Positions 28,011-55,654 of a stretch of DNA of 64,000 bases are shown piece by piece. Within the stretch, counting starts at the first letter, position 1; every line of letters starts with the position of its first letter. The stretch lies in contig JAPCJI010000001.1 of the NCBI GenBank assembly GCA_027887005.1, positions 62,001-126,000 of the forward strand, written 5' to 3'. The DNA is from Nitrososphaerota archaeon. Lineage in GTDB: Archaea; Thermoproteota; Nitrososphaeria; Nitrososphaerales; Gagatemarchaeaceae. The position numbers and the translations under genes were made by a program. The notes beneath the pieces are model-generated. The model saw only the letters and a list, made by a program, of their open reading frames with translations, searched no databases and was not told the origin of the DNA.

Positions 28011-28451
28011 TTGAGGCGCAGAGGGACATCGCAGATGATCGGGGAGTTCATGGTGATGGTGAGTGTCATACTCATCGGCGCCCCTTTGATTGGTTTCACC
28101 TTCGGGAATCTGGGTGCATTCAGCAAGCCAGCTGAAGTGCTTGTAAGCTCGTCTTTCTGTGGTCCGGGCGCCAACTCAGGCACCGTTTGCAGTTTCACCC
28201 TCACAAACTTGGGCGTCAGCAGTACTCAGGTCGAGCCCACCGCAGTCCTTCTCATCAATCACGGAAATGTAACGCGGACGAGTGATTCTGACGCCTGCGC
28301 GGGAGATGCCGGGATCACGGTTGGAGGTGGCTCAAGCCTTCACCTGAGCTGTCAGTTCAACATTGCTCCCGGGACATCGGGAGACGCCTATAGCGGCTCG
28401 GTCACCCTAGCGAACGGCGCTGTTGTCCCGTTCGTGGGCAAGTTCGGATAG
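28011..28451 (+). CDS. Archaeal type IV pilin (locus A, first)
   Basis: A 146-residue pilin. The class III signal reads L-R-R-R-G-T-S-Q-M-I-G-E-F then a hydrophobic helix (V-M-V-S-V-I-L-I-G), the site cut by a PibD-type peptidase. The C-terminus S-V-T-L-A-N-G-A-V-V-P-F-V-G matches the pilins at 40880 and 41486. I start at TTG 28011 because TATA-like gtattatcgg lies ~30 bases upstream and the basic stretch then starts the signal; the longer frame from 27903 adds an unlikely leader. It should assemble into a pilus or be a minor subunit. Confidence 0.75.
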   Translation: MRRRGTSQMIGEFMVMVSVILIGAPLIGFTFGNLGAFSKPAEVLVSSSFCGPGANSGTVCSFTLTNLGVSSTQVEPTAVLLINHGNVTRTSDSDACAGDAGITVGGGSSLHLSCQFNIAPGTSGDAYSGSVTLANGAVVPFVGKFG

Positions 28452-28614
28452 CCCCTTGCAAGGGTACCATTCAGGGTTCGCCTTCTGGTACAGGGGTGGA
28501 ATTCCTTGGCATAGAACTTCTAACTTCATAATCTAGGTTCTGTTGGACGGTAATCCATCAGCGCTTATATTAGGGAGAACAAATACGAACACAAATTCCG
28601 AATTGTCATCAAGA

Positions 28615-29145
28615 ATGGTTCGCCATCGTAGGCCAGGAGTCTCCGAGGTTTTGGCGGCTGTTATCACAATTGCGATTACGCTTGTCGCTGGGTACGCCCT
28701 CTTTGGCTACGTGAACGGCCAGGCCGCGGTAAGCGAAGATCAGCTCGGAGTCGCAAATGCACACAACGTCAACTTCCTCAATGAACAGTTCGTCGTTGCC
28801 CAGGTTGCCTATGCATCGAGCGGTAGTTCGATTTCGGTCTACATCTACGACAGCGGTCAGGCCACATTCCAGCCGGCGTCAATTGAGGTGTATAACACCC
28901 AGTCCCGTTCAAGCATGGACCTGCTTTACGATGGAACTCGTGTCGCAGACCTGAACAATCCTGGGTGCCATGAACCTACAAGCGGTCTAGCAACATTCTC
29001 GGTCAATCCCTTGAGCACTTCCATGATTACCCTCTCATTACCGGGTTGCTTCCAAGGATCCTTCCTATCGCCCGCTTCGCAATTCTTCACAGTTACGGTC
29101 GTGGGAATCTACGGCAATGTTGTAAGTTACTTCCAGGAGGCGTAA
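28615..29145 (+). CDS. Type IV pilin-like protein (locus A, second)
   Basis: A 176-residue protein. The signal R-H-R-R-P-G-V-S-E-V-L-A-A-V-I-T-I-A-I-T-L is class III-type and is followed by G-Y-A-L-F-G-Y-V-N-G-Q. The same layout (signal, then F/W-x-V-N-G-Q-A) occurs in the 206-residue protein at 42673 of locus B. ATG 28615 is preferred to the earlier start at 28543, which adds a non-hydrophobic leader. The stop lies four bases before the GTG of the giant gene. Confidence 0.75.
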   Translation: MVRHRRPGVSEVLAAVITIAITLVAGYALFGYVNGQAAVSEDQLGVANAHNVNFLNEQFVVAQVAYASSGSSISVYIYDSGQATFQPASIEVYNTQSRSSMDLLYDGTRVADLNNPGCHEPTSGLATFSVNPLSTSMITLSLPGCFQGSFLSPASQFFTVTVVGIYGNVVSYFQEA

Positions 29146-29149
29146 GTGT

Positions 29150-32100
29150 GTGCGTTTGATTGGCGGGAGCTCCTCCAAAAGGCCAGCGATCTCAGGAATA
29201 GTAGCAGGCCTGATTCTTTTCGTGATGCTTTTCACAATTGGAACGGGATACTTCCTATGGGTCAATACACTCAATGGGAATTACTCCCAAGCGCTCGCTA
29301 ACAGGGGGGCAGCCGTACAGAGTGCCCTTCAGGAGAACTTGGTCCTTAGTGCGACCGCCCCGACCGGTACGCTTCAGTTCGACGTCACGAATATGGGTGG
29401 CCTTGCGGCGGAAGTCAACGACCTCTTCGTGACCCTTCCGTCAGGAACAGTGTGCACTCCGTTCGGCCTTAGCACGAACACGAGTCCACCATTGCCAATG
29501 CCAGTCTCACAAGGAGACCCCCCAAACATCAACACAGGAATAAATGTCGTCGTTAGCGGCGGGACATGTCTCCAGGGGGGGCCGGGGACGTACACAATCA
29601 AGGTTCTCACCGCGAGAGGGAACACGTTCAGTACCAGCTTTTCGGCCCCGACAACCATACTCTCGACGAAACTCGGACCCTCTTCTAATGTCCCGATCGG
29701 TTCGTTTGTGTTCGATACGGCGACTTTGACGGAAGTCCCGACCAGCGCGGGAGGCTTGATTACCTTCTTCTTCACTACGACTAATGCTTGCCCCGCTTCG
29801 GGAGCTACCCAGGTGGGATTGCCTGTCACCGTTTCTGGAAATGGTGACTATCAGTCCGATTCATACACCTTCAACAGCGCAGGGACTTACAACTATTACG
29901 CGGTCTATAGCGGTGACGCTAACAACCCCTCGGCTTCCAGTCTCTGTGAGCCTCTGACTGTCCAGGCCACTCCCACTGTCTCTACCTTGTTATCATCGCA
30001 ACTGGCGGCAGTTGGCGCGCCAGTTAGTGACGCTGCCACCATAAACGGCGGGACCCGGACCATCCCTGCAGGCGGCTACGTCACATACTATTACTCGACG
30101 GTGGACTCTTGCCCCGAAACTGGCGCGGCCTTAGTGGGAACGCCTCTCCCCGTGACGAATGGTGCAGTCGCTTCCTCATCGACAGTGAGCTTCTCGGCTG
30201 CAGGAACCTACTACTGGTACGCAGTCTACAGTGGCGACACTTATAACGCGCCGGCGACGAGCCCGTGCGAGCCGCTCGCAGTCGGCAGCACCCCGGCACT
30301 CAGGACTACACTAACATTTTCCTCCATCCAGCAGACCGGAACGACGACAGACTCTGCGACTCTATCGGGCGCTGCCAGCGACCCCGGAGGAGGGGCTACC
30401 ATAACCTTCTGGTATTCGTCCATCGGCATTTGCCCCGCAGCAAATCCTTCCCAGCTAGGGCTGACAGAGGTCGGTTTGCCCGTACCAGTATCGAGTTCCG
30501 AGAACGGCATGTATCCGTCAGGAAGTTCGGGCCCGTTCGGCACGCAAGGAACCTACTACTGGTACGCGGTCTACAGCGGCGACACCTACAACGCGCCGGC
30601 GACGAGCAGCTGCGAACCTATGACCGTCGGACTTGCAATCACTACGACACTTTCAGCTGGAACGGTTTATCTCGGAGGGTCTGCGACCGACTCCGCAACG
30701 CTTCACTTTGGAACAGCGAACGCCGGAGGGAGTGTCACTTACTATTATTTCAGCGGAACCGATTGCTCCGGTCCTTCAACGCTGGTAAACACTGTGACCG
30801 TCACCGGCGGGCTCGTTCCCAATTCCAATCCAGTCAGTTTCTCCAGCACCGGTTCCTTCAGTTGGGACGCCGTCTATAGTGGCGATTCGAATAATGTTGG
30901 GCCGGTGACCAGCTCCTGCGAGCAGTTGACCGTCCTACCGCCCAACGGCAGCGGCCAGACCGGGTCTCTGCAGCAAGTAATAGGGTCATTCAAGTTCTAT
31001 TTCACGAACTGTAACCCCCTCGGGACTGGTAACAGCTGTAGTGGGGCAGGCCAGAACGGTCTGGGCGACGGGGTGAAGGTAAACGGGTATTACGGCTACG
31101 GTCTTTCATTCAGCGGCGTTTGTGAGGAGTTCGACTCCACTTGCAGCTCCGATGTTTTCCAGGTCGCGCTGACAAATCAGGACCCATCCGGCAGGTCGAT
31201 AGTTCTTAGTGCGCAGTCCTTCTTGTTCCTTCAAGGTGTTTGTCTTGACGGCCAATCCGATTGTGGGGGTCGTGATGCCCCGATCTATTCCCAAGGGTTT
31301 TGGATTATCGATGGGATCTGTCCTCCTTCTCCCCCCTGCACCGGACTGGGAGCGATTCCGGCGCCGTATTCGAGCGCGGTTACCGTTGGAGCGGGCGCCA
31401 CGGTAACTCTGTACTTCTACTGCATGGGCCCCTGCACAACTTCCGGCGCCCTCCAGCCACCCGCGAACCTTCCTTTGGCGGGAGATTATCTGTCGGTCTC
31501 GCTAAACCTTTACGGGCTCTACAGTGATGGAACCCCGTTCGGCCAGGACATTCCTTTCATTTCTTCGTACGTTTCACCTGTGCAGATAGTTCAATGCGCC
31601 ATTGGCCCCCTCCAAACAGGGCCAAGCTGTTGGGCACAGAACAACCCTGCCCAGCAGTTGAATGGCCTCGCGGGGAGCCAGATCACACTTGGAGTATCAA
31701 ACTTCCAACCACAACCTACGGATCCCTTCCCGATTAGCGTCTACTGGGTTAGCGCTTCCGGGGCAACGAGCGTCGTCAGCCCCCCAAACACCCTCTGTTC
31801 TGTTAGTTCCCAACCTTGCTATGTGACGTTTACCATCCCACCCAACTCACCTAGCGGATTCTTCGCTCTCTACGTCACCTCGGACGGAGTGAATAACGCA
31901 TATGCGACTGTGGACGTGACCGGCCCCTCGGGGACGACCGTTACGTGTACGCCTTCTACGGTCATTATCGGCGGGACTTCCTCTTGCAAAGCAGTTGTGA
32001 CGGGGGTGTCCCCAACCGGGACCATTTCATGGTCACAATCCCCGACAGGCATCGTAACCTTCTCCTCCTCGACCTGCACTCTTTCCGGCGGGACCTGCTC

Positions 32101-34261
32101 GGTCACAGTGACGGGAAGGGCCGGCGGCTCGACGACAATCACTGGGACCTACTCGGGTGACAACAGTAACCAGGGCAGCTCTGCCACAACAAGCGTCAGA
32201 GTCTTGAGCCTGACCGTCAGCCCGACATCAGGCCCAGTCGGCACCACCGTAACGGTCTCAGGTACAGCCTTTGCCGCCTCTTCCACTATCACGATAACCT
32301 TCAACGGCGTAACACAGACGACGGTCCCTCCTACGGTCACTTCATCTGTAACTGGTGACTTCTCTGCCACGTTTGTCGTACCCGCCTCTACGTCTGGTGC
32401 TAAGACGGTCACAGCAACGGATGCTAGTGCCAACACGGCGTCGGCCACATTTACGGTCACGATTGCTACGATTACCCTGAATCCGACCTCCGGTCCGGTT
32501 GGAACTACCACAACCCTCACCGGTTCCGGGTACTCTTCTACGACCACTTACAGCGACTGCCTAAGCACCAGCGCCATTTCCACTGGCGGCTGCATCCCCG
32601 CCTCAGTGGGGAGCTTCACGTCTACCGGTGCGGGGAGTATCCCTGGTGGCACAAGAGTGACAATCCCCGGCACAGCTGTAGGCTCGTACTTCGTGCTCGT
32701 ATACCAGGGGACCACACCAATATCATCAGCCACGTTCGCAGTGACAGCAGCCATTACTCTATCACCCGTCCAGGGCCCGGTTGGTGTCTCGGTCACCGTC
32801 ACTGGTTCCGGATTCTCTGCGAGCACCCTCTTAGGATCGATTGCATATGCTGGCGGCACGATCGCCACGCAGACGTGCACTTCAACGACGACCTCGCCCA
32901 CAGGCGCATTCACCTGTACCTTCACAGTTCCCAGCTCCTCGGCCGGTTCGTACACGGTCACGGTTTCGGGCAGCGACGTGGGCACAGTGACGGGTGACAA
33001 AGCTACCGCGTCCTTCACGGTCACGACCCCGAAAATCACGCTGACCCCATCAAGCGGCTCGGCGGGGACCGCCGTATCAGTGAGCGGCACAGGATTCTCC
33101 CCGAGCACGGCCTCTCCTCCCTTAACAATAACGGTGGCCAAGTTCACCTTCAACGGGGCTACGCCTGCAACGCAGACCTGCATCTCGCAGACGATCTCCG
33201 CTACAGGCGCCTTCTCTTGCTCCTTCACGGTTCCGTCGGTCGCTTTGGGCCCATATATCGTGACAGCGTCGGGCAGCGACATAAGCACGGTCCCCACAGA
33301 CACGGCCTCCGCAACCTTTACGGTCGCAAAACACGTGAGTCTCGTTCAACAGGCGGCAGGCTTAGCAAAGGCGGCCTCGCCATTCACCTGCGCATTTTCG
33401 AGTCAACCGGCCACAGGTGACCTGGTTGTTGTCGCTTTCATCGTGACCCCCAGCTCCTTAACGGTAACTTCCGTCAATGATGCGCATGCTCACGGACTAC
33501 CTTTGGTGACTTCTAGAAGTCAAGGCGCTCCATCCACAACGACCCTTCAAGCCTTCATGTATGCTGAAATAATCACGAGCAGCGGGAGCAGCCCGTTCAC
33601 GATTACTCTGAGTGGTACCCCGACTAGCGCGATAGTTACTTGCACTGAATGGAGCGGTGTCCTCTCTGCATCCCCTGTGCTAACCGGTTCCGGGGCAGGA
33701 ACATCGACATCAAACACGATTAACATCGTGTCATCCTCTGTTACGCCCACATCTAATGACTTGGTATACGCTTATGCCGGATATTCGAACTGCGGTAGCA
33801 CGTCACCTCCGAACGCGGTTTCTCCCCCGTTTACCTCCGGAAGCGCGAGCATTGGTTCAGGAAGCCCCACTCTTACTTCCTGCGGTTCTGGAAACAACTA
33901 TCGTCTAAACGATGGAGATCAGTATGACGCCAGCTGGGGCAGCGGAAGTACAACTGCACCCTTTGCTGTCAGTCAATCGTCGCCTACCACTGGTTCTTCT
34001 GGCTGGGTCGAGCTTGTAGTTGACTTCGATCCGCCGACTCAGGCCAACTCCAATGTCGCCTCTCTAGTCCTTGGTTCGCCAGCGGGAGCCATAGGCACAG
34101 GTTCGAATGCCGGCCGCTCTTCTGTCCCAATGGTGCCGGTAATTACCGGAAGCGCACCAATCCTGGTCCTTCTGACCCAGCTGTTTTCTCGGCGGAACGA
34201 GCAACATCAACCTCAGTCCAGCCACTTGCATCTTGAAGCAAAGGAAAGAGGCACAAAATGA
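29150..34261 (+). CDS. Giant pilin-signal surface protein with Ig-like repeats (1703 residues)
   Basis: The N-terminus (S-K-R-P-A-I-S-G then a ~22-residue hydrophobic helix) is a class III signal like those of pilins, so this protein is expected to enter the pilus pathway. After it come ~four ~100-residue beta repeats marked by Y-Y-W-Y-A-V-Y-S-G-D (about residues 180-560), a cysteine-rich non-repeated part, IPT/TIG-like units marked by S-P-T-S-G-P-V-G-T (about 1010-1330) and a C-terminal beta domain. A short hydrophobic stretch is near residue 1665. GTG start, stop overlapping the ATPase ATG. It looks like a pilus-tip or surface adhesin; the ligand is unknown. Confidence 0.75.
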   Translation: MRLIGGSSSKRPAISGIVAGLILFVMLFTIGTGYFLWVNTLNGNYSQALANRGAAVQSALQENLVLSATAPTGTLQFDVTNMGGLAAEVNDLFVTLPSGTVCTPFGLSTNTSPPLPMPVSQGDPPNINTGINVVVSGGTCLQGGPGTYTIKVLTARGNTFSTSFSAPTTILSTKLGPSSNVPIGSFVFDTATLTEVPTSAGGLITFFFTTTNACPASGATQVGLPVTVSGNGDYQSDSYTFNSAGTYNYYAVYSGDANNPSASSLCEPLTVQATPTVSTLLSSQLAAVGAPVSDAATINGGTRTIPAGGYVTYYYSTVDSCPETGAALVGTPLPVTNGAVASSSTVSFSAAGTYYWYAVYSGDTYNAPATSPCEPLAVGSTPALRTTLTFSSIQQTGTTTDSATLSGAASDPGGGATITFWYSSIGICPAANPSQLGLTEVGLPVPVSSSENGMYPSGSSGPFGTQGTYYWYAVYSGDTYNAPATSSCEPMTVGLAITTTLSAGTVYLGGSATDSATLHFGTANAGGSVTYYYFSGTDCSGPSTLVNTVTVTGGLVPNSNPVSFSSTGSFSWDAVYSGDSNNVGPVTSSCEQLTVLPPNGSGQTGSLQQVIGSFKFYFTNCNPLGTGNSCSGAGQNGLGDGVKVNGYYGYGLSFSGVCEEFDSTCSSDVFQVALTNQDPSGRSIVLSAQSFLFLQGVCLDGQSDCGGRDAPIYSQGFWIIDGICPPSPPCTGLGAIPAPYSSAVTVGAGATVTLYFYCMGPCTTSGALQPPANLPLAGDYLSVSLNLYGLYSDGTPFGQDIPFISSYVSPVQIVQCAIGPLQTGPSCWAQNNPAQQLNGLAGSQITLGVSNFQPQPTDPFPISVYWVSASGATSVVSPPNTLCSVSSQPCYVTFTIPPNSPSGFFALYVTSDGVNNAYATVDVTGPSGTTVTCTPSTVIIGGTSSCKAVVTGVSPTGTISWSQSPTGIVTFSSSTCTLSGGTCSVTVTGRAGGSTTITGTYSGDNSNQGSSATTSVRVLSLTVSPTSGPVGTTVTVSGTAFAASSTITITFNGVTQTTVPPTVTSSVTGDFSATFVVPASTSGAKTVTATDASANTASATFTVTIATITLNPTSGPVGTTTTLTGSGYSSTTTYSDCLSTSAISTGGCIPASVGSFTSTGAGSIPGGTRVTIPGTAVGSYFVLVYQGTTPISSATFAVTAAITLSPVQGPVGVSVTVTGSGFSASTLLGSIAYAGGTIATQTCTSTTTSPTGAFTCTFTVPSSSAGSYTVTVSGSDVGTVTGDKATASFTVTTPKITLTPSSGSAGTAVSVSGTGFSPSTASPPLTITVAKFTFNGATPATQTCISQTISATGAFSCSFTVPSVALGPYIVTASGSDISTVPTDTASATFTVAKHVSLVQQAAGLAKAASPFTCAFSSQPATGDLVVVAFIVTPSSLTVTSVNDAHAHGLPLVTSRSQGAPSTTTLQAFMYAEIITSSGSSPFTITLSGTPTSAIVTCTEWSGVLSASPVLTGSGAGTSTSNTINIVSSSVTPTSNDLVYAYAGYSNCGSTSPPNAVSPPFTSGSASIGSGSPTLTSCGSGNNYRLNDGDQYDASWGSGSTTAPFAVSQSSPTTGSSGWVELVVDFDPPTQANSNVASLVLGSPAGAIGTGSNAGRSSVPMVPVITGSAPILVLLTQLFSRRNEQHQPQSSHLHLEAKERGTK

Positions 34262-35850
34262 GTCAGCCTGTCAAGAAAGATGGCAAGGGGCTAGGCGAAG
34301 AGCTGAAGCATCCCCCCACGGGCAAGAGATTGTCGTCAGATTTCAAGGTGCTTGAAAGATATCCCCTCGCAGCGCCCTTCTCCTACGCCGTCATCGCGGA
34401 GGCTCCGGGTTCCACTTCGAAGATTTATTCCGTTGACGAAATAGGGCTCTCACCTCCTGAAGTCGGCGCGTATTATTACATGCTGGGCGCCATCGAGAAC
34501 GAACTCACCATTTCCAGGAAGCGAGTGGATCCGAAGGCCTACTTCCGGCTTGAGGCAAAGAAAATCGCAAAGAAATACTCGATCACTATCCCCCGGTTGG
34601 CATGGTCGAAGATCTTCTACTATGCGGAGAGGGACATCGCTGGCTTTGGCGTGCTCGATGGCATTATGCACGACCAGAATATAGAAGACATATCGGTCGA
34701 CGGCACCCACAACCCCGTCCTTGTCTATCATAGGAAGTACGAGAGGATACCGACGAACATAGTCTTTGAGAACGAAGTGGTCCTCAACGACCTGATTGCG
34801 AAGTTCGCACACGTGGCGGGGAAGCACATCTCAGTAGCGTTTCCGATCATGCAGGGAACCCTCCCCGGCGGCCACAGGGTGATGGCGACCTACAGAAAGG
34901 AGGTCTCCCCGCACGGCGGGACCATGAGCATCAGGAAGTTCAGGGAGGACCCCATCACAATCATCGACATGTTGAGCCTTGGCGTCTTGGACTCTTACGC
35001 GGCTGCTTACGTGTGGCTCCTTATGGAGAACCATGCAACCGCCATCGTCGTGGGCGCAACAGGGGCCGGCAAGACGACGACGCTCAACGCACTCCTCACC
35101 TTCACCCCAACAAACAGCAAGATAGTCACCATCGAAGAGGTCCAGGAAATCAACCTGGCTCAGAAGGGCTGGACTGCTCTCGTGTCAAGAGAAGCCTACG
35201 GGGTCACTGAGGAAGGGCCCAAGGGGGTCGTCCTCTTCGACCTGGTGAAAGCAGCCATGAGAATGAGGCCCGATGTCCTGGTCGTCGGAGAGGTCCGCGG
35301 GGATGAGGCATACGTCCTCTTCCAGGCCATCAGCACAGGCCACGGGGGTCTCTGCACCCTTCATGCGGACGATGGCCCCTCGGCTATTCAGAGACTGATT
35401 TCGAAGCCCATGGACGTCCCTGAAGCTTTCATCCCCTTCCTGAATCTGGCGATCACCGTCAGAAGACTCACCTTACATGTCAAGGGCGGGGGGACCCGTG
35501 TGGTCAGGAGGATAATCTCCATCGATGAGGTCAATGGGGTGGGGGACTACAATTCCATCTTCACCTGGGACCCGGGAAGTGACACGCTAATCCCGGACTC
35601 CCTGAAAAAGAGCAAGAGGCTTGCAAGGATTGCCAAGGATCTTGGAATCACATTCCCTCAGGTTGAAGAGGAACTCATGCGGAGAAGCACGGTGCTGAAG
35701 TGGATGCAGAGGAAGGGCCTGCGGAACTTCAAGGAGATTACCCCGCTCTTTCAAGCCTACATTGAAGACTCCAAGAAAGTCTACGAGAAGGCGAAGGAGG
35801 AACTGGAGGCGTCGACTGCGCCCATCCCCCATGTGGAGGCGGAAAACTGA
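34258..35850 (+). CDS. Type IV pilus assembly ATPase, FlaI/TadA-type (locus A)
   Basis: A 530-residue secretion ATPase. It has Walker A (G-A-T-G-A-G-K-T, residues 266-273), the aspartate box (I-E-E-V-Q-E-I-N), Walker B (V-L-V-V-G-E-V-R-G, near 338-346) and the histidine box (S-T-G-H-G-G-L-C-T-L-H). These hydrolyse ATP to drive pilin assembly at the cytosolic membrane face. Its ATG overlaps the giant gene stop by four bases. It is closely related to the locus B ATPase (51909) but lacks that protein's proline-rich extension. Confidence 0.92.
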   Translation: MSQPVKKDGKGLGEELKHPPTGKRLSSDFKVLERYPLAAPFSYAVIAEAPGSTSKIYSVDEIGLSPPEVGAYYYMLGAIENELTISRKRVDPKAYFRLEAKKIAKKYSITIPRLAWSKIFYYAERDIAGFGVLDGIMHDQNIEDISVDGTHNPVLVYHRKYERIPTNIVFENEVVLNDLIAKFAHVAGKHISVAFPIMQGTLPGGHRVMATYRKEVSPHGGTMSIRKFREDPITIIDMLSLGVLDSYAAAYVWLLMENHATAIVVGATGAGKTTTLNALLTFTPTNSKIVTIEEVQEINLAQKGWTALVSREAYGVTEEGPKGVVLFDLVKAAMRMRPDVLVVGEVRGDEAYVLFQAISTGHGGLCTLHADDGPSAIQRLISKPMDVPEAFIPFLNLAITVRRLTLHVKGGGTRVVRRIISIDEVNGVGDYNSIFTWDPGSDTLIPDSLKKSKRLARIAKDLGITFPQVEEELMRRSTVLKWMQRKGLRNFKEITPLFQAYIEDSKKVYEKAKEELEASTAPIPHVEAEN

Positions 35851-38426: not shown

Positions 38427-38891
38427 TTATGCTTTGGTCGTCAGCAAAGCGTCGACCTGAGCGTTCCTCTCTTCATCGACTACAATCCTCAGAGGAACCC
38501 CATGGCGCAGGTACAGGATCAAGGATGCGCCCTTGGGGACGCCAAGATCCTCTAGTTCGTCGATATTCGTAAGTACTTCCCTCGTCCTATTGGCCTTCGC
38601 CTTGTAATCCTCCATCACTTCGATCATGAGTTCCAGGGTGCCAACTTTTGATTCCTTTGTGTTGACCATGATCATCCCCACCTTCTTCCACCCGGTCTCT
38701 TTCATCTTTCCTAGGTTCTTCCCGTGGGGTTCCTTTTCCAATATCCGCATTAGGTCGCCGACTTTTACTCCGTAAAGGTCGCATTCCCTCTCATAATGCA
38801 GGAGGAGGGTTTTCAGATATGCCGTAAGACTCTGCATTGATTCGAATTTCACGAGTCCGGGAAGAGGAAGAGGTTGAACTTCCTGCATCAT
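38427..38891 (-). CDS. 154-residue protein, locus-A copy of a paralogous pair
   Basis: A soluble 154-residue protein. It aligns by eye along most of its length with the 154-residue protein at 58459: Y-L-K-T-L-L-L-H-Y-E-R-E against Y-L-K-E-L-L-D-T-Y-Q-R-E, and G-A-S-L-I-L-Y-L-R-H-G-V-P against D-A-T-F-L-L-Y-L-R-G-G-I-P. ATG 38891 follows a strong reverse-strand TATA (ttaaatataa, 38913-38922) by ~26 bases. One copy sits beside each pilus locus. Function unknown. Confidence 0.65.
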   Translation of the reverse strand: MMQEVQPLPLPGLVKFESMQSLTAYLKTLLLHYERECDLYGVKVGDLMRILEKEPHGKNLGKMKETGWKKVGMIMVNTKESKVGTLELMIEVMEDYKAKANRTREVLTNIDELEDLGVPKGASLILYLRHGVPLRIVVDEERNAQVDALLTTKA

Positions 38892-39195
38892 GTTCCTAAT
38901 CCACAATCTGGATTATATTTAAGGGTAGGTTGACTAACTGGCAGGCAAGTCTAGACTTGGCGTTGTTCTTTTCTAATAGGCCTTGCCCCAAATAGTCGAA
39001 CTGTTGTTCTGCAGACGATACGAGACCGTCCATACCCTCAGGAAGGCGCCTAGACGCGTAAAAGGAAACTCGTTTGGAGGAATGAGAAAAAAGGGAGTTC
39101 ACATCCCTATTCCCATACAGGCATAACTTCCCCTCTTGGAATCGGCATGTTCGGATATCTGGGTCCCTCCCCTTGGTTGAATCTGGTGATACGCG
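38892..39195. other. Divergent intergenic region
   Basis: It holds the leftward TATA (38913-38922) and the upstream region of the small membrane gene at 39196. A T-rich tract on the reverse strand near 39088-39095 could end a leftward transcript. I see no further gene. Confidence 0.45.
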
Positions 39196-40023: not shown

Positions 40024-40061
40024 TTGAGTTCTGAGGTAGAGATTTCCCATATTAGCAGTTG

Positions 40062-40089
40062 TGGAGCCTGAATCTGTTTCTCCAGTCAA
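40062..40089 (-). promoter_or_regulatory. Operator-like box upstream of the pilin at 39589
   Basis: Matches 41962-41989 upstream of the pilin at 41486 at 24 of 28 positions without gaps; the shared core is aatctgtttctc. Both copies sit ~40 bases upstream of the start and just before the TATA. This is the typical place for an activator site. Confidence 0.55.
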
Positions 40090-40117
40090 GGAATCCTTAC
40101 CGGCACCCACTGCCTGC

Positions 40118-40357: not shown

Positions 40358-40520
40358 GTGCTTGTCCTCTACGATGGTGCCCCGTTTAGCCAAGCAACGA
40401 CTCTGCTGATTGTGCGAGGATGTGTGTATGGGCTTGTTTCGGGTTGTTCTTGGCGTCCTTTCAGCTTCCACTCGGCATATTCCGCAGAATCGCGCCTGGT
40501 AGTGGGCAAAAGGCGCTGTT

Positions 40521-40697: not shown

Positions 40698-40816
40698 ACC
40701 CAAGGATTGGCTCGCCTGACTTGCGCCTGACTCGATAATGAACACTTGCTCTATAGAGGGTGGCCTGGAACTATCCGAAATGACAAAGAATTGTCTCTTT
40801 CAAATCATTAAATGAG

Positions 40817-44965: not shown

Positions 44966-44981
44966 TAGTGGAGGAGCCAAG

Positions 44982-47900: not shown

Positions 47901-48929
47901 ACCGACACCGACGGGAACAACATCGGCTTCACCAGCGCATGCGGAGGCGCCGGAGAGACCCTTACGGTCAACAAGGCTTCGCCAACGATAGCCACTACGG
48001 TCTCCTCTGGCGGGACCATCTCCATAGGAGGTTCAGCCACCGACCAAGGCACCTTCTCGAATGGATACGGCACTTTGACCGGTACCCTGGTCTTCAAGGC
48101 CTATAGTGCCTCTTCCTGTCTCAGCGGGCTTTCATTCACAAGTAACACCATAACGGTGAATGGCAACGGACCGTACACCTCGAATTCGTTTGCTCCGAAT
48201 CCTGCAGGAACCTACTACTATCAGGCAACCTTCACCGACACCGACGGGAACAACATCGGCTTCACCAGCGCATGCGGAGGCGCCGGAGAGACCCTTACGG
48301 TCAACAAGGCTTCGCCAACGATAGCCACTACTCTCTCAGCAACGACCATCCAGGCAGCGGGCTCTGTGTTCGATCGGGCTACGCTCTCTGGTACTTTCGG
48401 CTCGGCAGGAGGCACGGTCCAGTATGAGTACTTCACAGGGAGCTCGTGCCCTGGCTCCCCCAGCAACGTCGGCTCAGCTGTGACAGTGAGCGGCGGCGCG
48501 GTGCCGAACTCTGTTTCACAGACCTTCAATACCGCGGGACTCTACGGCTGGGAAGCGGTCTACAGTGGCGACGCGAACAACAACGGCGCTACTAGTTCTT
48601 GCGAGCCGCTTTCCGTGCTGAGCCTCACAGTCAGTCCCACTTCAGTTTCGGCCAGCGGCACCAGCTCCCAGCGCAGAGTAACGTTGCAGAGTTCGAGTGC
48701 CGGCTACGACACTAGTACGACCTATAATTATTGTATGAGCACGAGCGCAGTCTCAATAACCTGTGTCGGCGGGACAAGCGGCACATTCACAGGAACTGGA
48801 GCAACAGGGACGATTCCAAGCGGAACAAGGTTCACCGTGCCGCACAACCAGGCAACAGGCACCTACTACGTCATCATCTATACAGGCGCTACCATCTGGA
48901 TTACCGCAACCTTGACGGTGACACCCTAA
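44982..48929 (+). CDS. Giant pilin-signal surface protein with Ig-like repeats (1315 residues)
   Basis: Class III signal H-R-R-G-I-S-G then a ~22-residue helix. Residues to ~560 are the module shared with the 554- and 897-residue neighbours. From ~565 the chain has three Ig-like units (each with S-P-x-x-V-x-x-P-S-x-C-x-x-T-V-T-D), two tandem ~112-residue units (T-I-S-I-G-G-S-A-T-D-Q-G-T), one further unit and a short C-terminal domain. No C-terminal membrane helix. TTG start. Predicted as a long, externally displayed pilus or cell-surface adhesin. Confidence 0.75.
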   Translation: MTPNITSRGHQHRRHRRGISGILAAVILFAMIFTTGFGYLLFVTQGSLSISQANAARQDALLQAGQEALLSKVVVAGGTTLVLSVNNTGGTPVSLSRIYIDDNTGKMITPPGFMGPGGGTNATANWPISLPVGQSTNTLGGCVAGKTGCNIALTSYTYAGASVSVEIVTSKGNTFGTPYPPISTLTSKGNALVVKMLATPSQTLSCTGCVTVTVTVYNYAPSSVTGVALSPSPPTAQVTGTASVTGGSCLAPVPSNTIVAYSGSGNAPSITFTCTYNAQTGAVGGLATFSTSAIGTLNAKGVSSAVAMSNNIQIGGNSNVPTQGAFAVNYFFLKFSACQYAPSGSVGSYTYSSPCVTTPVTMPPTSPYSLTNGNYISAISDYYVAYYVQVTNVFNATLPILEYSYLFMDPSVSTEAFNFLVGTATNPQVPYYPNYCGSIGCGGDKLPLFTPYAATAATCAESPPNYNPPSPTQCIDVAPGQTVTLTFAACGYGASNWVWGGTPYAQQLDHSAGCITTPPNFKGAVPEGQTLGVVLSYLYKNQAYSQVMPFEGQTLTNVRTSSTAVACSPSPVAVNAPSTCTMTVTDTAFGNPFTPTGMVTLTQTPGTGGTISNGGTCTLSGSGATATCVLTFTPALGQEITNMLNATYPGDTNHSPSWGITSLTATQRSTSTTEICSPSYAVPNTPTNCVTTVTDNSPGNAVTPTGTISFTQSPLSSGTFTPLTTCPLSQVSPGVASCPITYTPNPNFQGTVTVTGSYGGDTDHAVSSNAAQVKWARSTLTSVSCASPVVVGSPSACTLTVTDTYTGIPITPTGTVTLSQSLPSTGTFSNGGSCVLSGGSCAPFTFTPGSGQVWPPSVTITASYPGDANHIPSSGSASIHVNGASPMIATLVSSSGTISIGGSATDQGTFSNGYGTLTGTLVFRAYTSSACSSGLSFTSNTITVSGNGPYTSNPYTPSLPGSYPAHYYYQATFTDTDGNNIGFTSACGGAGETLTVNKASPTIATTVSSGGTISIGGSATDQGTFSNGYGTLTGTLVFKAYSASSCLSGLSFTSNTITVNGNGPYTSNSFAPNPAGTYYYQATFTDTDGNNIGFTSACGGAGETLTVNKASPTIATTLSATTIQAAGSVFDRATLSGTFGSAGGTVQYEYFTGSSCPGSPSNVGSAVTVSGGAVPNSVSQTFNTAGLYGWEAVYSGDANNNGATSSCEPLSVLSLTVSPTSVSASGTSSQRRVTLQSSSAGYDTSTTYNYCMSTSAVSITCVGGTSGTFTGTGATGTIPSGTRFTVPHNQATGTYYVIIYTGATIWITATLTVTP
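45762..45836 (+). repeat. 75-base block identical to 44063-44137
   Basis: Partner of the block in the preceding gene; see that entry for the comparison. Confidence 0.7.
47667..48331 (+). repeat. Tandem repeat inside the 1315-residue gene
   Basis: Two neighbouring Ig-like units (about 333-345 bases apart). The block 47881-47998 equals 48214-48331 base for base (118 bases). The near-identity indicates a recent expansion of the repeat region. Confidence 0.75.
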
Positions 48930-48930
48930 G

Positions 48931-51624
48931 ATGAACCTCGGAAACCCCAACGGCTACCAGCGGCGGCGAAGAGCAGTGGCAAGCATACTGGCCACGATGA
49001 TCATGTTCGCGATGCTCTTTAGTGGCGGGGTCGGCTTCCTGCTCTTCATCAACCAGAACTCCCTCATCAACAACCAGGCGAGCGCGGGCAGGCAGGCAAC
49101 CCTCCAACAGGCATCCCTTGAGCACCTCGTCGTGGGTGTCAAACTATCGTCAGTGGCTGATCCGTGGGGGCAGATGGGCGACCTGGGGCTCACCCTGAAC
49201 AACACCGGCGGGGCAACAGTGACCGTCCTGGATGTCTACGTAACGAACGTGGCGAAAGGTCAGCCCGTCTCGAACTCCCAGGTCACGCCAGGTTCTCACT
49301 ATCTTAGTGTTCTTGGAACGGGGGCTCAGATGGGCGACCTGAACGTCACCCTGCCTCTTTCGATAAGCATGGGCGCCTCAACGAGAACAATGAGCGGATG
49401 CATCTCCGGGAAGACAGGCTGTGATCTCGCAATCAGCAAGACGTCCTATCCATATGTGTCCGGGACGACGGTGTTGGTGAGCGTTCTCACATCGACTGGC
49501 AACATCTTCTCCGCCCAGTATCCGCTACCCGGCGGCACGCCCGGGATCGGGAGCAACGCCCTAGTCGTCAAGTTGATCGCCGCCCCTCCTCAGACTCTGA
49601 CGTGCAGCGGGTGCGTGACTGTGACGGTCACTGTCTACAACTACGCCACATCGCCAGTAACGGGCGTCGCTCTTGACCCATCCCCTCCCACAGCCCAGGT
49701 GACAGGCACAGCCAGCATCACGGGGGGCAGCTGTCTAGCGCCCGTCCCCAGCAACACGATTACTGCGTACTCCGGCTCAGGCAGCGCGCCCTTCATAACA
49801 TTCACGTGCACCTACAATGCCAATACCGGCGCGGTAGGCGGCTTCGCTTCGTTCTCCGGCTCGGCGATAGGCACCCTCAACTCAGTCTCTGTCTCCTCCG
49901 CTCAGGAGGTCTCCAACACCATCCAGATCGGAGGCACCGTCAGCGTACTCAACCAGGGGCCATTCTCAGCGAATTCCTTCTTCTTCAAGGACACCTACTG
50001 CTACCAAAAGGGCGGCATCATCTTTGTCTCGCCGTGCACGCAGACCCCCTCCGGCACTCTCAGCATTGGCACCCTTCCCAGCGCTAACCCTCAGAACGGC
50101 AGCGCCGACTACTACGTAGCCTACTACGTCCAGGTCACCAACAACTTCAACACGACCGTGCCCTTGCTGCAGTATTCCTACTTCCAGACCGACCCCTCTT
50201 TGGGCGGAGAGTCGGACTTCTATCTCGTGGGAGCCGCTTCATCGTACAGTGCCTCGAGCTGCACAAGTGGGGTGAGTTGCTACTTCCCCGATTACAGCAA
50301 GTTCACCCCCACCCTAACCCCCTACGGTGGGGACGCGATCACATGCGCAGAGACCCCTCCCAACTACAATCTTCCTTCTTCGACAAACTGCATCGACATC
50401 GCTCCCGGACAGACGGTGACACTCACCTTCGCTGCATGCCGCTTCGGTACTGCGAACTGGAACTGGGGATTCAGTCAGTACGGTCGAGCATTCGACAACC
50501 CCCTCGGCTGCACCCCTCAGAATCCGCCGAACTACCAGACCCCAGAAGCAACCTACCTGAGCATAGTACTCTCCTTCATGTACAAGGGTCAGGTCTACGA
50601 CCAGCAGATCCCATTCCAGGGAGAAACAGTCCTGGGGGGGAAGACCAACAACGTGACACCCTGCAATACTGAGGTTCTCGCCTACTGCGGGACCGTGTTC
50701 TATACTCAATACTCTGGAGCCGTGGGATACTTCAATTTCGTATACAAACCGGGGACGCCCACTCCCTTTGCAATCCCTACTCCACCAGTTGTGATAAACA
50801 ACAACCTGCCGCACGGCTCAGACGGTGTTGTATTCAATCCTCAGGACCACATGATACTGACCGGGACAAACCAACCCTACAACGGTTTCAACGAGGTCAA
50901 CCCGAACACGGGTGTAGCCACCACTTATCCCTCGACGATCTACTCATACAATCTCATGGTTGACTCGGCTGGGACAAAGTTGTGGATGGACGGAGACCCA
51001 GGCGCAGGCAGCCTAGCATGGGTCCCACTTAGCGCGGCAAATCCATCGGTCGGGGCCCCCACAACTCTCTCGCTTTCGGGTGATGACGTCAACCTGAATA
51101 CAGTGATATTCGTAGATCCGACCCACGTGTACTACACTGCTGAGCTTGGGACGCGCTTCGAGGGAATGACAGGCCATGTCGGCAGCATCGACACAGCGAC
51201 AGGAGTGACGACCTGCTTCAAGGATGCTGGAGGGGCTTGCCATACCTTCACTGGGGTACACGGGGGGTCTTATGACCCATTCACGCAGGACCTTATGGTC
51301 TATGGTTGGAACGTCATCAATCAGATTAATCCCACCACCGGACCCCTCGGATGGACACTCGTGGCCAGCGAGACAGTGTCCGCTCTTACCCCGAGCGCGG
51401 GGAATGTTTTCGACCAGGGCGCAGTTGATGGCTTTGGCCACCTCTTCCTTTCCTGGGCCAGTGATACTGGGGCAATCTACTTCGAGGATTACTCAAGTGG
51501 GTCAGTCGGCATCGGCAACTTCCACTACATTACCCCTCAGACCCTGAAGAACAACCTTGGAGCTACAGCTTTCTTCGACCTCGACGACCTCGCCCCTATA
51601 GTTGGCCCCGGTTCGCAGGGATAG
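48931..51624 (+). CDS. Giant pilin-signal surface protein with propeller-like C-terminus (897 residues)
   Basis: Class III signal R-R-R-R-A-V-A-S-I-L then a hydrophobic helix. The first ~560 residues share the module of the two previous genes. The last ~330 residues read like a beta-propeller: repeated G-x-D-G-V-V-F-N-P-Q-D, M-V-D-S-A-G-T-K-L-W, F-V-D-P-T-H-V-Y-Y and I-D-T-A-T-G units. Such folds often bind sugars or proteins. ATG directly after the previous gene's TAA. It is another variant of the pilus-displayed protein. Confidence 0.75.
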   Translation: MNLGNPNGYQRRRRAVASILATMIMFAMLFSGGVGFLLFINQNSLINNQASAGRQATLQQASLEHLVVGVKLSSVADPWGQMGDLGLTLNNTGGATVTVLDVYVTNVAKGQPVSNSQVTPGSHYLSVLGTGAQMGDLNVTLPLSISMGASTRTMSGCISGKTGCDLAISKTSYPYVSGTTVLVSVLTSTGNIFSAQYPLPGGTPGIGSNALVVKLIAAPPQTLTCSGCVTVTVTVYNYATSPVTGVALDPSPPTAQVTGTASITGGSCLAPVPSNTITAYSGSGSAPFITFTCTYNANTGAVGGFASFSGSAIGTLNSVSVSSAQEVSNTIQIGGTVSVLNQGPFSANSFFFKDTYCYQKGGIIFVSPCTQTPSGTLSIGTLPSANPQNGSADYYVAYYVQVTNNFNTTVPLLQYSYFQTDPSLGGESDFYLVGAASSYSASSCTSGVSCYFPDYSKFTPTLTPYGGDAITCAETPPNYNLPSSTNCIDIAPGQTVTLTFAACRFGTANWNWGFSQYGRAFDNPLGCTPQNPPNYQTPEATYLSIVLSFMYKGQVYDQQIPFQGETVLGGKTNNVTPCNTEVLAYCGTVFYTQYSGAVGYFNFVYKPGTPTPFAIPTPPVVINNNLPHGSDGVVFNPQDHMILTGTNQPYNGFNEVNPNTGVATTYPSTIYSYNLMVDSAGTKLWMDGDPGAGSLAWVPLSAANPSVGAPTTLSLSGDDVNLNTVIFVDPTHVYYTAELGTRFEGMTGHVGSIDTATGVTTCFKDAGGACHTFTGVHGGSYDPFTQDLMVYGWNVINQINPTTGPLGWTLVASETVSALTPSAGNVFDQGAVDGFGHLFLSWASDTGAIYFEDYSSGSVGIGNFHYITPQTLKNNLGATAFFDLDDLAPIVGPGSQG

Positions 51625-51908
51625 GTAGAATGATAGAACAGAGGCCTTCGATAAAGTGCGAAGCAAACCCTCCCAGAGGGCGAATCATGAAGACCAATGG
51701 ACTGATATCTGGGTTGTGCTCCATAACGGATAAATACATTCTTGGTATGATGAAGCAAAAGACAGTCTTGCGTTTCAATTCGGTCGGCTGTAGGTTCTAT
51801 GAAGTACCGCGTGATGATTGCTACCAGACCCAGGACGCGAGGGGTCTTTATGGTCTCGAAATCCATATCGGTTATAAGCAGAGTCTGCCCCGAAAATGGA
51901 GTAGCTAG

Positions 51909-53942
51909 ATGTCCAGCGATGGAAACGAGGAGCGCAAGGGTTTCTTCAGACGCCTATTCAGGCGGAACAAGGAGGAATTAGAAGCCCCACCCCTGGAGCC
52001 AGCTGTGATGTCAAAGCCCACGCCCGCTTCTCAAGTTCCACTCGGAGCGGTGGCCCCTCAAGCGACGAGTTCCACACCGGTCAATCCCCGTCCTGCTCCT
52101 GGCCCATCTGTCCAGACCGGCGGAGCTCGGGAAGCCCAATCACCAAACCGTGACATTTCGCCAACGGAGGCAAGAATCCCCCCCGTGAAGCCGATCGAAG
52201 CTGAGCCACAGACTCCTGCGAAGCCAGAGCCCAAACAGGCGTCCCAGAACATGCAGGCGTCGAGGCAACAGACCGTACAAGTTCAGAAACCTGTTCCGAA
52301 GCAGCCCACACCCGAGGATCGCACTGAGGAGGAAGAGGCCACCATGGCAAAGAGATTCAGATTCCTCAAGAACGTCAAAGTAAGGTTCCCGTTCTCCGGT
52401 ACAACGATTCCCCCCTCCTGGAAAGTCCTAGAGAGATACCCTGTCAACAGCCCCTTCGCCTACGCAGTCGTGGCTCAGAGTCCCCTCCTGGCGAGGCGGT
52501 ACTTCATTGACGAGGTCCCCCTCACGAAGACCGAGGCCGCGATATACTCCTACCTGATCGACGCCCTCGAGGCGGAGCTTACAGTTCCAAGGGAACAGAT
52601 CAACCCAAGACAGTACTTCGCCGACCAGGCAAGGAAGATCCTGCTGAAGTACAACATCCGCGTCCCCGCCGCATCTTGGTCAAAGATCATCTACTTCGCA
52701 GAAAGAGATCTAGTCGGGTTCGGCGTGATGGACCCCTTGATGCGGGACCCGAACATTGAGGACATATCGATAGACGCTCTCGGAAAACCGATCTTCATCT
52801 ACCACAAGAGCCACGAGAGCCTCGAGACAAACATCACGATAAGCGACGATGAGGTGCTGGACAACCAGATCACTCGCCTCTCCCACATGGCAGGGAAGCA
52901 CGTCTCCACCGCGTTCCCTGTCGTCCAGGGAACTCTCCCAGGTAGGCACAGGCTCATCGCTACGTTCAGGCGTGAAGTTTCCCCCCAGGGCAGCTCCGCC
53001 ACCATCAGGAAATTCAGGGAGGACCCGTTGACCATCGTTGACATGCTCAACCTGAACCTGCTCGACCACAGAATGGCAGCCTACACCTGGTATTTGATGC
53101 AGAACAGGGCGACGGCTTGTGTGGTTGGTTCGACTGGGGCCGGCAAGACGACGCTGTTGAACGCACTCCTAACCCTGACTAGGCTAAACACGAAGCTCGT
53201 GACAATCGAGGAGGTCCAGGAAATTAACGTCCCCCACCTCAATTGGACCTCCCTCGTGTCTAGAGAAAGCTACGCGGCGACGGAAGAGAAGGCAGGCGAA
53301 GTAGGTCTGTTCGAGCTCGTAAAGGCCGCCATGAGGATGAGGCCTGATATCCTCTGTGTCGGCGAAGTGAGAGGAGAGGAGGCATATGTGCTATTCCAGG
53401 CAATCTCCACGGGCCACGGAGGCCTTTCGACTGTCCACGCAGACGACGCAGCGTCGGCCCTGCAGAGGCTTGTATCCGCTCCTATGAACGTCCCGAGGGC
53501 CTTCATACCATTCCTCGACCTCGTTTTCGTAGTCAGAAGGATCTCAGTCCCGGCCCCAGGGGGAGGCTTCAAGGCCGTGAGAAGGATCGTCTCGGTGGAC
53601 GAGGTGGTCAGCGACCAGGAGGTAATGAAGGCGTTCCGATGGGACGCACGCACCGACACTTTCAAGCCTAGTTTCGACAAAAGCACCAAGCTCGAGCGCA
53701 TCTCACGAGACAACGGCATCCCAATGGGTGACATACTGAAGGAGATCGAAAGGCGCGCCCTCATCCTCCGGTGGATTCAGCAGAAGGGAATCAGGAACTT
53801 CAAGGAACTCTCGCCGATACTCGAGCTTTACGTGGCAAGGCCTGAGGAAGTGTTCAACACCGCCGCCAACGAGCTCGAAGCGAAAGGGGTCGCGGTCGCT
53901 GAGATCATGGGCGAATACGGCCACGGCGGTCAGCGCCCGTGA
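51909..53942 (+). CDS. Type IV pilus assembly ATPase with proline-rich extension (locus B)
   Basis: A 677-residue secretion ATPase. Residues ~1-150 are low-complexity and rich in P, A, Q, E and S with no fold visible. The rest matches FlaI/TadA ATPases: Walker A (G-S-T-G-A-G-K-T, 407-414), the I-E-E-V-Q-E-I-N box, Walker B (I-L-C-V-G-E-V-R-G) and a His box (S-T-G-H-G-G-L-S-T-V-H). It powers pilin assembly. TATA-like ggttataag (about 51876-51884) suggests its own promoter, ~285 bases after the giant genes. Confidence 0.92.
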   Translation: MSSDGNEERKGFFRRLFRRNKEELEAPPLEPAVMSKPTPASQVPLGAVAPQATSSTPVNPRPAPGPSVQTGGAREAQSPNRDISPTEARIPPVKPIEAEPQTPAKPEPKQASQNMQASRQQTVQVQKPVPKQPTPEDRTEEEEATMAKRFRFLKNVKVRFPFSGTTIPPSWKVLERYPVNSPFAYAVVAQSPLLARRYFIDEVPLTKTEAAIYSYLIDALEAELTVPREQINPRQYFADQARKILLKYNIRVPAASWSKIIYFAERDLVGFGVMDPLMRDPNIEDISIDALGKPIFIYHKSHESLETNITISDDEVLDNQITRLSHMAGKHVSTAFPVVQGTLPGRHRLIATFRREVSPQGSSATIRKFREDPLTIVDMLNLNLLDHRMAAYTWYLMQNRATACVVGSTGAGKTTLLNALLTLTRLNTKLVTIEEVQEINVPHLNWTSLVSRESYAATEEKAGEVGLFELVKAAMRMRPDILCVGEVRGEEAYVLFQAISTGHGGLSTVHADDAASALQRLVSAPMNVPRAFIPFLDLVFVVRRISVPAPGGGFKAVRRIVSVDEVVSDQEVMKAFRWDARTDTFKPSFDKSTKLERISRDNGIPMGDILKEIERRALILRWIQQKGIRNFKELSPILELYVARPEEVFNTAANELEAKGVAVAEIMGEYGHGGQRP

Positions 53943-55654
53943 GCTTCAAGTTAATCCTGCCCAGGGGCAAGTCGAAAGAGAAGATCAAGCTCACCTTCTT
54001 CGACAGGTTAACACAAGCCTCGTTTCGGATCTTCGCCTGGCCCGCCACTAGGCTAAGCCGCTCGGTACCCCTACTCAGGGATAACATCCTGAAGTCGAAC
54101 CTCAGAATAACACCAGAGGGCTTGATCTCCGTGGCCCTCTTCTCAACCGCCCTTACCGCAATAATCGCCGGGGTCCTGATCTACGTTGGTTTTGCCTTCT
54201 TCCACATTCCCTACTTCCTGGCGCTCATCGCCGCTGTCCCCCTGGTGTTCACTCTGGTCATAAATGGCCCCAAAATCAGTGCGTCATCTCGTGGAGCAAG
54301 CATAGATACCGAGCTCCCCTTCGTGATCGGATACATGTCGGTGCTGGCAGGGGGAGGCGTTTCCCCTCTCTCGACACTCAGGAGGATCTCGGAAATGAAG
54401 CTATTCCCAGCCGCTCGAAGGGAGGCGAAGAGGGTCCTACTTGAGGTTGAAGTCTTCGGACACGACCCTATCACCGCGATTGAGATCGTAGCACGCTATA
54501 ACCCAAACAAGCGCTTCTCAGAATTCCTGTTCGGGTACACGGCAATCCTCAAGAGCGGAGGAAACTTCATCGCCTATGTCCAGTCTAAGCTCAGGGATAC
54601 TATGGAGGCCAAGGCAAACCAGGTGAAGAGGTCTGCCGACACGACGGGAACCATGGCAGAAGCGTACCTCACGGTCACAGTCATCCTAGGAATGGTGCTC
54701 TATACCCTGTACATGATTCAGACACTCATCAGCAACAACCTCAATGGGCTCACTAATCTTTACATCTTTGCCTTTGTCCTCGTTCCTGTAATCTCTGCTG
54801 GATTCATCTGGCTCATAGACGCCGTCCAGCCAAAGTGGCCCTACGTGGACTACAGGCCCTACAAATGGTTCCTAGTCACCGCGCCTATTGCAGCGCTGTT
54901 CTTCTTCCTGCCTCTCCCACTCCATTTGTACCAGAAGACCTCCGGAACCCTGATCATAGGTGTGTCAATCCCGGCCTTCCTGGCGATCAGATACGGCAGA
55001 GAGAGGAGAGGACTCGAGCGCATGCTCCCCGAGTTCATCCGAGACGTAGCCGAAGGCAGGAAGACTGGACTCTCTCCCGAAGTCGCGATTGAGAGGCTCG
55101 GAACGAGGCAATACGGGATCCTCTCAAAGCACGTAAGAAAGATGGGAGCCCAGCTATCGTGGGGTGTTGCCCTCTCGAAGGTCATATCGACTTTTACCGG
55201 CGCTGTTGGGAGCTGGATCACGAGAGCTGTCGGAACATTGCTTATCGAGGTTGTCGACGTCGGTGGTGGGACGATCAGGAGCTTCTCAGAGATGGCCGAG
55301 TTCACAAGGAGCATCAACGATATGGAATCGGACAGGCGGTCGGCCCTCAGGCCCTTCGTCTTTATCACCTACATCGCGGGAGTGATGGTCATCATTACAA
55401 CGTTCATCATGGTGTACCTGCTGTCAGCTCCTTCGGCGACCGGTTTCGCGACCTCAACCGTTCCAACGGTTTCACCCACCGTCATCGACACTCTTCTGAC
55501 GACCGCGGTCTTCGACGCATTTGTCATTGGGATAGTCGCAGGCAAGATGGGAGAGAGCGGAATCTCGGACGGATTCAAGCACGCCATCGCCCTGGTCGTC
55601 GTAAGCCTGCTAGCGATATTCGTCGCAAGGGGCTTCATTGCCATCCCCGTCTAA
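53939..55654 (+). CDS. Type IV pilus platform protein, FlaJ/TadC-type (locus B)
   Basis: A 571-residue membrane protein, GTG start overlapping the ATPase stop (GTGA). Two T2SSF-like halves are present (P-F-V-I-G-Y-M-S-V-L-A-G-G-G-V and G-G-G-T-I-R-S-F-S-E-M-A) with several flanking helices. It is similar throughout to the locus A protein. It forms the membrane platform on which the ATPase acts. Confidence 0.92.
   Translation: MSFKLILPRGKSKEKIKLTFFDRLTQASFRIFAWPATRLSRSVPLLRDNILKSNLRITPEGLISVALFSTALTAIIAGVLIYVGFAFFHIPYFLALIAAVPLVFTLVINGPKISASSRGASIDTELPFVIGYMSVLAGGGVSPLSTLRRISEMKLFPAARREAKRVLLEVEVFGHDPITAIEIVARYNPNKRFSEFLFGYTAILKSGGNFIAYVQSKLRDTMEAKANQVKRSADTTGTMAEAYLTVTVILGMVLYTLYMIQTLISNNLNGLTNLYIFAFVLVPVISAGFIWLIDAVQPKWPYVDYRPYKWFLVTAPIAALFFFLPLPLHLYQKTSGTLIIGVSIPAFLAIRYGRERRGLERMLPEFIRDVAEGRKTGLSPEVAIERLGTRQYGILSKHVRKMGAQLSWGVALSKVISTFTGAVGSWITRAVGTLLIEVVDVGGGTIRSFSEMAEFTRSINDMESDRRSALRPFVFITYIAGVMVIITTFIMVYLLSAPSATGFATSTVPTVSPTVIDTLLTTAVFDAFVIGIVAGKMGESGISDGFKHAIALVVVSLLAIFVARGFIAIPV

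Follow-up and report, generated by a model that had tools for sequence, protein, structure and literature searches.

Large modular type IV pilins predicted in two pilus operons of a Nitrososphaerota archaeon

Two type IV pilus operons in the genome of a Nitrososphaerota archaeon encode four large proteins that, judged from their sequences, are modular type IV pilins, some of them apparently built by insertion into a conserved scaffold. The stretch of DNA analyzed, called the window here, comprises 64,000 nt of contig JAPCJI010000001.1 (positions 62,001 to 126,000, forward strand; assembly GCA_027887005.1). The source genome is 1.6 Mb in 26 contigs and 96% complete; the closest named relative located is a Nitrososphaerales MAG, whose platform protein is 69% identical.

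Two pilus loci and their assembly machinery

Both loci lie on the plus strand and share the gene order small pilin, large class III protein or proteins, FlaI-type ATPase, and FlaJ-type platform (Table 1). A sequence-only reading of the window had given each locus its own ATPase, platform, and pilin-like gene in the same order, which open reading frames and Pfam profiles bore out, together with the sizes it had listed for the large proteins, 1703 amino acids in locus 1 and 554, 1315, and 897 amino acids in locus 2 (43301 to 51624). The genes are tightly packed, with intergenic gaps of 4, -4, and 47 bases in locus 1 and of 7, 16, 1, 284, and -4 bases in locus 2. Among the features by which an archaeal type IV pilus is recognized, a T2SSE/VirB11 ATPase, a T2SSF/TadC platform, and linked class III pilins were found by profile searches. 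Between the loci, the ATPases are 54% and the platforms 51% identical, and the 96%-complete genome yielded no T2SSE ATPase or T2SSF platform protein beyond the one of each per locus. The loci had also been called complete; ATPase, platform, and pilins are indeed there, but the word needs qualifying because a prepilin peptidase is absent from both. The single PF01478 match in the genome lies outside the loci and scores 23.6 bits, below the cut-off of 26.5; this PibD-like candidate is a 205-amino-acid multi-helix protein with QD and GQAD motifs.

Table 1. Features of the two pilus loci and the interval between them (window positions; a slash marks the predicted cut site)
Feature	Position	Strand	Basis
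PilA-like pilin, locus 1, signal RRRG/TSQMIGEF	28011-28451	+	Similarity to 40880-41314 pilin
Small partner pilin, locus 1, signal RRPG/VSEVLAAV	28618-29145	+	Weak Pilin_N
Predicted giant modular pilin, 1703 aa	29150-34261	+	D1 profile 178 bits; D2 E 2.8e-15
D1 module of 1703-aa protein	29150-29641	+	D1 profile 116 bits, residues 8-164
Ig-like array between D1 and D2, 1703-aa protein	29642-30958	+	Three Big_3_5 (PF16640) stretches, E 1.6e-14
D2, pushed downstream by Ig array, 1703-aa protein	30959-31573	+	D2 profile E 2.8e-15, residues 604-808
C-terminal extension of 1703-aa protein, Big_3_5- and TIG-like	31574-34261	+	
FlaI/VirB11-type assembly ATPase, locus 1	34258-35850	+	PF00437 E 1.9e-35
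FlaJ/TadC-type platform, locus 1	35898-37562	+	PF00482, two stretches, E 1.2e-17
PilA-type pilin, candidate major subunit	39589-40110	-	PF07790 33.6 bits, cut-off 25.2
PilA-type pilin, candidate major subunit	40880-41314	-	PF07790 31.7 bits; TIGR02537 42.8 bits, cut-off 20
PilA-type pilin, candidate major subunit	41486-41920	-	PF07790 32.5 bits
Small partner pilin, locus 2, signal RRIA/ISEIMGTL	42673-43293	+	TIGR02537 30.8 bits, above cut-off
Predicted large modular pilin, 554 aa: D1, insert, divergent D2-like domain	43301-44965	+	D1 profile 196 bits
Predicted giant modular pilin, 1315 aa: 554-like core and C-terminal Ig array	44982-48929	+	
Predicted large modular pilin, 897 aa: 554-like core and unique C-terminal domain (50641-51624)	48931-51624	+	
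FlaI/VirB11-type assembly ATPase, locus 2	51909-53942	+	PF00437 E 2e-35
FlaJ/TadC-type platform, locus 2	53939-55654	+	PF00482 E 3.2e-20

The ATPases and platforms are distantly related to those of the Ups pili and the bindosome (Bas) of Sulfolobus, and the bindosome likewise has large proteins with class III signals. UpsF and BasF are the top NCBIfam models for the platforms, below those models' cut-offs; bindosome-level similarity is not reached (BasE, 213 to 224 bits against a cut-off of 1000; BasF, 89 to 129 against 1300), nor is the level of archaellum equivalogs (FlaI, 334 to 336 bits against 550; ArlJ, 38 to 72 against 400 to 570). One could picture the FlaI/FlaJ pairs pushing out short assemblies, like a type II secretion pseudopilus or a bindosome, that expose the giant proteins just beyond the S-layer. 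The ranking of the platform models points that way, several giants per operon would suit a mixed assembly, and the known archaeal example with large class III substrates is the bindosome (PMC4858521). Against these points stand the scores far below the family cut-offs, Ig-like arrays here with no substrate-binding domains, the lack of any Pfam match to a sugar-binding domain in the large proteins, and the PilA-type major pilins adjoining the loci. We consider such assemblies improbable and prefer a type IV pilus.

In a tree of platform proteins, that of locus 1 groups with an operon (G004) whose large pilin is only 388 amino acids long, and that of locus 2 falls within a clade of five operons, every one with a large pilin of at least 1162 amino acids. 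The 284-base gap ahead of the locus 2 ATPase (51625 to 51908; 278 bases in G009) may hold a promoter; a 92-amino-acid open reading frame inside it had no relative among the loci searched. Directly 3' of the locus 2 platform is a SAM methyltransferase with N-terminal hydrophobic segments (55704 to 56498, plus strand). Homologues in G009 (63% identity), G100 (41%), G004 (33%), and G011 (35%, partial) are likewise located close to the platform or following it, and the enzyme possibly modifies pilins or envelope components.

The three minus-strand PilA-type genes between the loci (39589 to 41920), all above the PF07790 cut-off, had been passed over by the sequence-only reading. Together with the PilA-like gene at the start of locus 1, which has no Pfam or NCBIfam match of its own and is 31% identical over its length to the PF07790 pilin at 40880 to 41314 (E 7e-10), they are better candidates for the major pilins of the filament body. 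As for the small partner pilins, that of locus 1, for which an earlier start is possible, was aligned with 18 relatives, mostly from the same gene position (alignment A5), that of locus 2 is 64% identical to its G009 orthologue, and neither has a credible PDB relative across its length.

Near each pilus locus lies one of two related uncharacterized proteins (38427 to 38906 and 58459 to 58923, both on the minus strand; 32% identity over 130 residues, E 6e-24). Relatives of the first were found near pilus loci in six further cases (L027, L039, L040, L041, L078, and L088), and the two probably represent a pilus-linked family. Short proteins of winged-helix type, two of them near locus 2, are possible regulators; PF14947 is confirmed for that at 57158 to 57544, and those at 57501 to 57941, 60819 to 61136, and 6692 to 7036 look alike by eye.

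The pilin module and the four large proteins

The N-terminal residues of all four large proteins, about 170 in number, form a common module, D1. A profile built from 17 such modules (alignment A1) matched residues 6 to 141 of the 144 in the cryo-EM pilin 8FK7 (E 1.9e-9), which is from the archaeal type IV pilus of Pyrobaculum calidifontis (PMC12954529). The agreement comprises signal plus β domain, running through the soluble β domain at 'vvsvnNtGgvavtivsvyvtn' and 'vkvlTsrGnvfsatY.' Run across 299 genomes of the phylum, this profile also retrieved ordinary-size pilins, for example, of 135 to 190 amino acids, and its largest match outside the order was 1239 amino acids. Because the profile matches both 8FK7 and these ordinary-size pilins, D1 appears to be a whole pilin on its own, and we regard it as very probably the pilin module of the large proteins. 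The proposal of the sequence-only reading that these proteins are pilin-type subunits thus gains support from homology that spans almost all of a solved archaeal pilin; 8FK7 itself is a filament subunit without grafted domains. A large-pilin profile run on the organism's own genome gave four strong matches only, all in the two operons, the next, at 28 bits, being the small pilin of locus 1.

The class III signals of the large proteins read KRPA/ISGIV, KRKG/VAGIF, RRRG/ISGIL, and RRRA/VASIL (a slash marks the cut site). A simple class III filter flagged 43 of 45 large-pilin relatives, compared with 11 of 197 other open reading frames of at least 250 amino acids, several of which resemble Sec signals. 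The looseness of this filter might be taken to mean that the motifs are accidental and that the proteins are ordinary secreted Ig-repeat surface proteins next to pilus genes. We reject that reading, which is highly improbable, because D1 is homologous to a solved pilin across the whole domain; the motif is moreover carried by nearly all relatives, and the position of the gene is conserved throughout the order. Prepilins are generally thought to be inserted by Sec and then cleaved by prepilin peptidase. The earlier description of the signals as class III rather than Sec therefore stands for the motifs and not for the either/or opposition.

A 944-amino-acid protein encoded at L093:146-2980 has a clear class III signal, RRRG/VSSVIGTIFFILVVFI (cut after RRRG), and no match to the D1 profile; it perhaps represents a second family of modular pilins.

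Beyond D1, the four proteins differ. In the 1703-amino-acid protein, the Ig-like array following D1 is 46 to 47% identical to the array of a 2007-amino-acid relative (L030), and the C-terminal extension has PF16640 (E 6.6e-6) and PF01833 (E 4.5e-4) similarity, both under the curated cut-off. The 1315-amino-acid protein is 53% identical to the 554-amino-acid protein over residues 10 to 556 and has four Big_3_5 stretches (E 7.8e-12); the 897-amino-acid protein shares this core at 45 to 50% identity. Ig repeats, as earlier proposed for the large proteins, are thus found above cut-off (Big_3_5) in the 1703- and 1315-amino-acid proteins, which thereby possess the module non-specific to pilus biology that defines a modular pilin; Pfam found none in the other two and recognized no extra domain in the 554-amino-acid protein. 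A propeller, earlier suggested for the 897-amino-acid protein, was not found: its C-terminal domain, 73% identical in the G009 orthologue, has no Pfam match up to E 1 and no credible PDB relative.

AlphaFold models from window-only alignments had a mean pLDDT of 29.9 for the 897-amino-acid protein and 51.2 for residues 1 to 847 of the 1703-amino-acid protein. Neither is good enough for a pilin fold, and they were used only for a helix at residues 14 to 59 of the latter, followed by strands, at low to moderate confidence. A Foldseek search with the model of residues 1 to 847 returned generic tandem β-sandwich chains only (complement C3, Dscam, and FN3) at low TM-score, which we do not take as homology.

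A two-domain core and its insertions

The corresponding gene position in most related species encodes a protein of about 335 to 390 residues that consists of D1 (about 1 to 165) and a second domain, D2 (about 165 to 345), which ends in motifs like 'NYGQNSPYVSTLY' and has no detectable relation to D1. The D2 profile places D2 directly after D1 in these ordinary-size relatives, whereas in the giants it is displaced, to residues 604 to 808 of 1703 in the window, 1583 to 1818 of 2007 in L030, and 1901 to 2040 of 2138 in L084, and is split at 1044 to 1295 of the 1399-amino-acid L085. The core therefore appears to be kept while the middle grows. What separates D1 from D2 in the clearest giants is an Ig-like array or, among relatives, DUF2341, and more follows D2. 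The inserts include 10 Big_3_5 stretches in L030 and 7 in L085; DUF2341 occurs in the 2138-amino-acid giant D1 protein at L084:10888-17304 and in a D1 protein of at least 1699 amino acids, open at both ends, at L095:1-5097. Locus 2 differs in that D2 is divergent, being weakly recognized by profile-profile comparison (P 4e-5, probability 70%), and the Ig array of the 1315-amino-acid protein and the C-terminal domain of the 897-amino-acid protein come after the core, not inside it.

The arrays of L030 and L085 align together in several registers, as expected for gain and loss of repeats. A tree of D1 places the 1703-amino-acid protein among ordinary-size proteins (94/94, below the starred threshold) even as its array is close to that of the other operon type, which suggests, with moderate support, that arrays may move between systems. 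With giants defined as proteins of 859 amino acids or more, this tree requires six changes of the label, of which the starred branches force at least four, and these may be gains or losses.

FlaF and FlaG are thought to hold the base of the archaellum in the S-layer, and D1 itself matches FlaG and FlaF weakly (E 0.04 to 0.07). The large proteins might accordingly be processed like pilins without polymerizing and serve as helix-anchored stalks at the cell surface or associated with the S-layer, in which they might secure the base of the pilus. Their frequent pairing with a second pilin-like gene recalls that of FlaF with FlaG, and two large class III proteins, encoded at L027:6378-9866 (1162 amino acids) and L031:6502-12411 (1969 amino acids), are hydrophobic near the C terminus and then carry basic residues. 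Such endings would fix them in the membrane, possibly at both termini; the 1703-amino-acid protein shows a weak version by hydropathy (residues 1661 to 1679, then a basic tail). These tails argue for membrane retention of some giants and are the main reason for doubt about pilus assembly. Most giants, however, including those of 2007, 2138, and 1399 amino acids and three of the four window proteins, have no such anchor by hydropathy, the top match of D1 is a filament-forming pilin and not FlaF or FlaG, and members of the genus usually have the assembly ATPase after the large-pilin slot. Stalks are on balance unlikely, and we favor pilus subunits.

Linkage, proposed display, and relation to known modular pilins

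Linkage of a large-pilin gene was scored by fixed distances, 2.5 kb to a small pilin and 7.5 kb to an ATPase, which had to be on the same strand. The former held for 36 of the 45 large-pilin genes in relatives and the latter for 24, some of the unlinked genes being at contig ends. The sequence-only reading implied linkage to pilus ATPase and platform genes in close homologues. Within the genus this is so for same-slot homologues, with the exception of L077, a 451-amino-acid homologue that adjoins a small pilin without ATPase or platform beside it; in distant families, some homologues, L092 and L093 among them, are truly unlinked yet lie beside small and PilA-type pilins. Linkage is common, not universal, because of L077 and these distant homologues.

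In the explanation that we favor as a whole, each operon would supply the machinery of an archaeal type IV pilus together with its small partner pilin and at least one modular minor pilin. The large proteins would enter the membrane with the N terminus inside and lose their leader to a PibD-type peptidase, and the neighboring FlaI/FlaJ pair would draw the D1 helix into a filament with PilA-type pilins as its main component. Small and modular pilins would act as a pair, probably in the complex that initiates the filament or forms its tip, since bulk is easiest to accommodate there, and the Ig arms would project outward as adhesins with a reach that varies with repeat number. Assembly by the neighboring machine is likely, an adhesive role is somewhat favored, and a tip position is evenly balanced. 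The tip receives support from bulk, from bacterial modular pilins, for which the tip is likely and the filament body also possible (PMC8179133), and from DUF2341 in two giant relatives, a domain tied to PilY-type pilus-tip adhesins in the 2016 census (PMC4858521); a Methanococcus transformation screen also repeatedly hit a DUF2341 gene within a pilus cluster (PMC10133366). Three large pilins in one operon would be hard to place all at one tip, and against the explanation as a whole counts that roughly one in two large-pilin genes of relatives lacks an adjacent ATPase and platform.

The large pilins had earlier been described as an unusual layout, which overstated the case: a survey of bacterial modular pilins covers more than 1,200 proteins in 264 architectures, the most extreme of 860 amino acids (PMC8179133). 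Like the PilB and PilC proteins of Streptococcus sanguinis, of which PilB has been shown to be an adhesin (PMC8179133), the proteins described here have a class III signal, an N-terminal pilin module, a grafted, likely adhesive module, and a predicted minor-subunit role, likely at the tip. They differ in belonging to an archaeal pilin family outside that survey, in carrying grafts both between two conserved domains and C-terminally, with several such proteins per operon, and in reaching 1703 amino acids here and 2138 in relatives against 860, a size comparison that is not like for like because the survey was confined to one signature (IPR012902). The PilY1/PilC tip adhesins are likewise large, modular, and presented by type IV pili, and they share DUF2341 with L084 and L095; PilY1 is, however, not a pilin, whereas here the extra domains are fused to one, and no DUF2341 occurs in the window proteins. 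The census of Makarova in 2016 includes pili of thaumarchaeal type; in the part available to us (PMC4858521), the D1-plus-D2 core, the identity of the large protein as a pilin, and the insertion architecture are not described, and we found no description of the scaffold or of between-domain insertion in the open-access literature. What is new, on these sequence comparisons, is modular pilins in archaea that are larger than those reported in bacteria and would have arisen partly by insertion into a conserved scaffold.

The modular-pilin concept is thus extended to archaea, and a protein with a pilin module can apparently carry well over 1,000 extra residues. The insertion point lies between two conserved domains, which are both retained even when, as in the largest relative, up to about 1,700 residues apart. 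More speculatively, and with rather low probability, D1 plus D2 and the small pilin may act together as a device dedicated to presentation: D1 and D2 would pack against each other, pushing out the inserted array as a loop-shaped arm whose length can be adjusted, and in some operons the machine would serve to deploy such arms and not to build an ordinary pilus; if true, this would be a new way to mount adhesins on type IV filaments. The inflated second pilin genes suggest that the pili of these cells serve to present large adhesive arms, which raises the question of how the assembly machine extracts such bulky subunits. They also give a testable rule for adhesive pilins in an order that includes ammonia oxidizers and in which pilus function is nearly uncharted.
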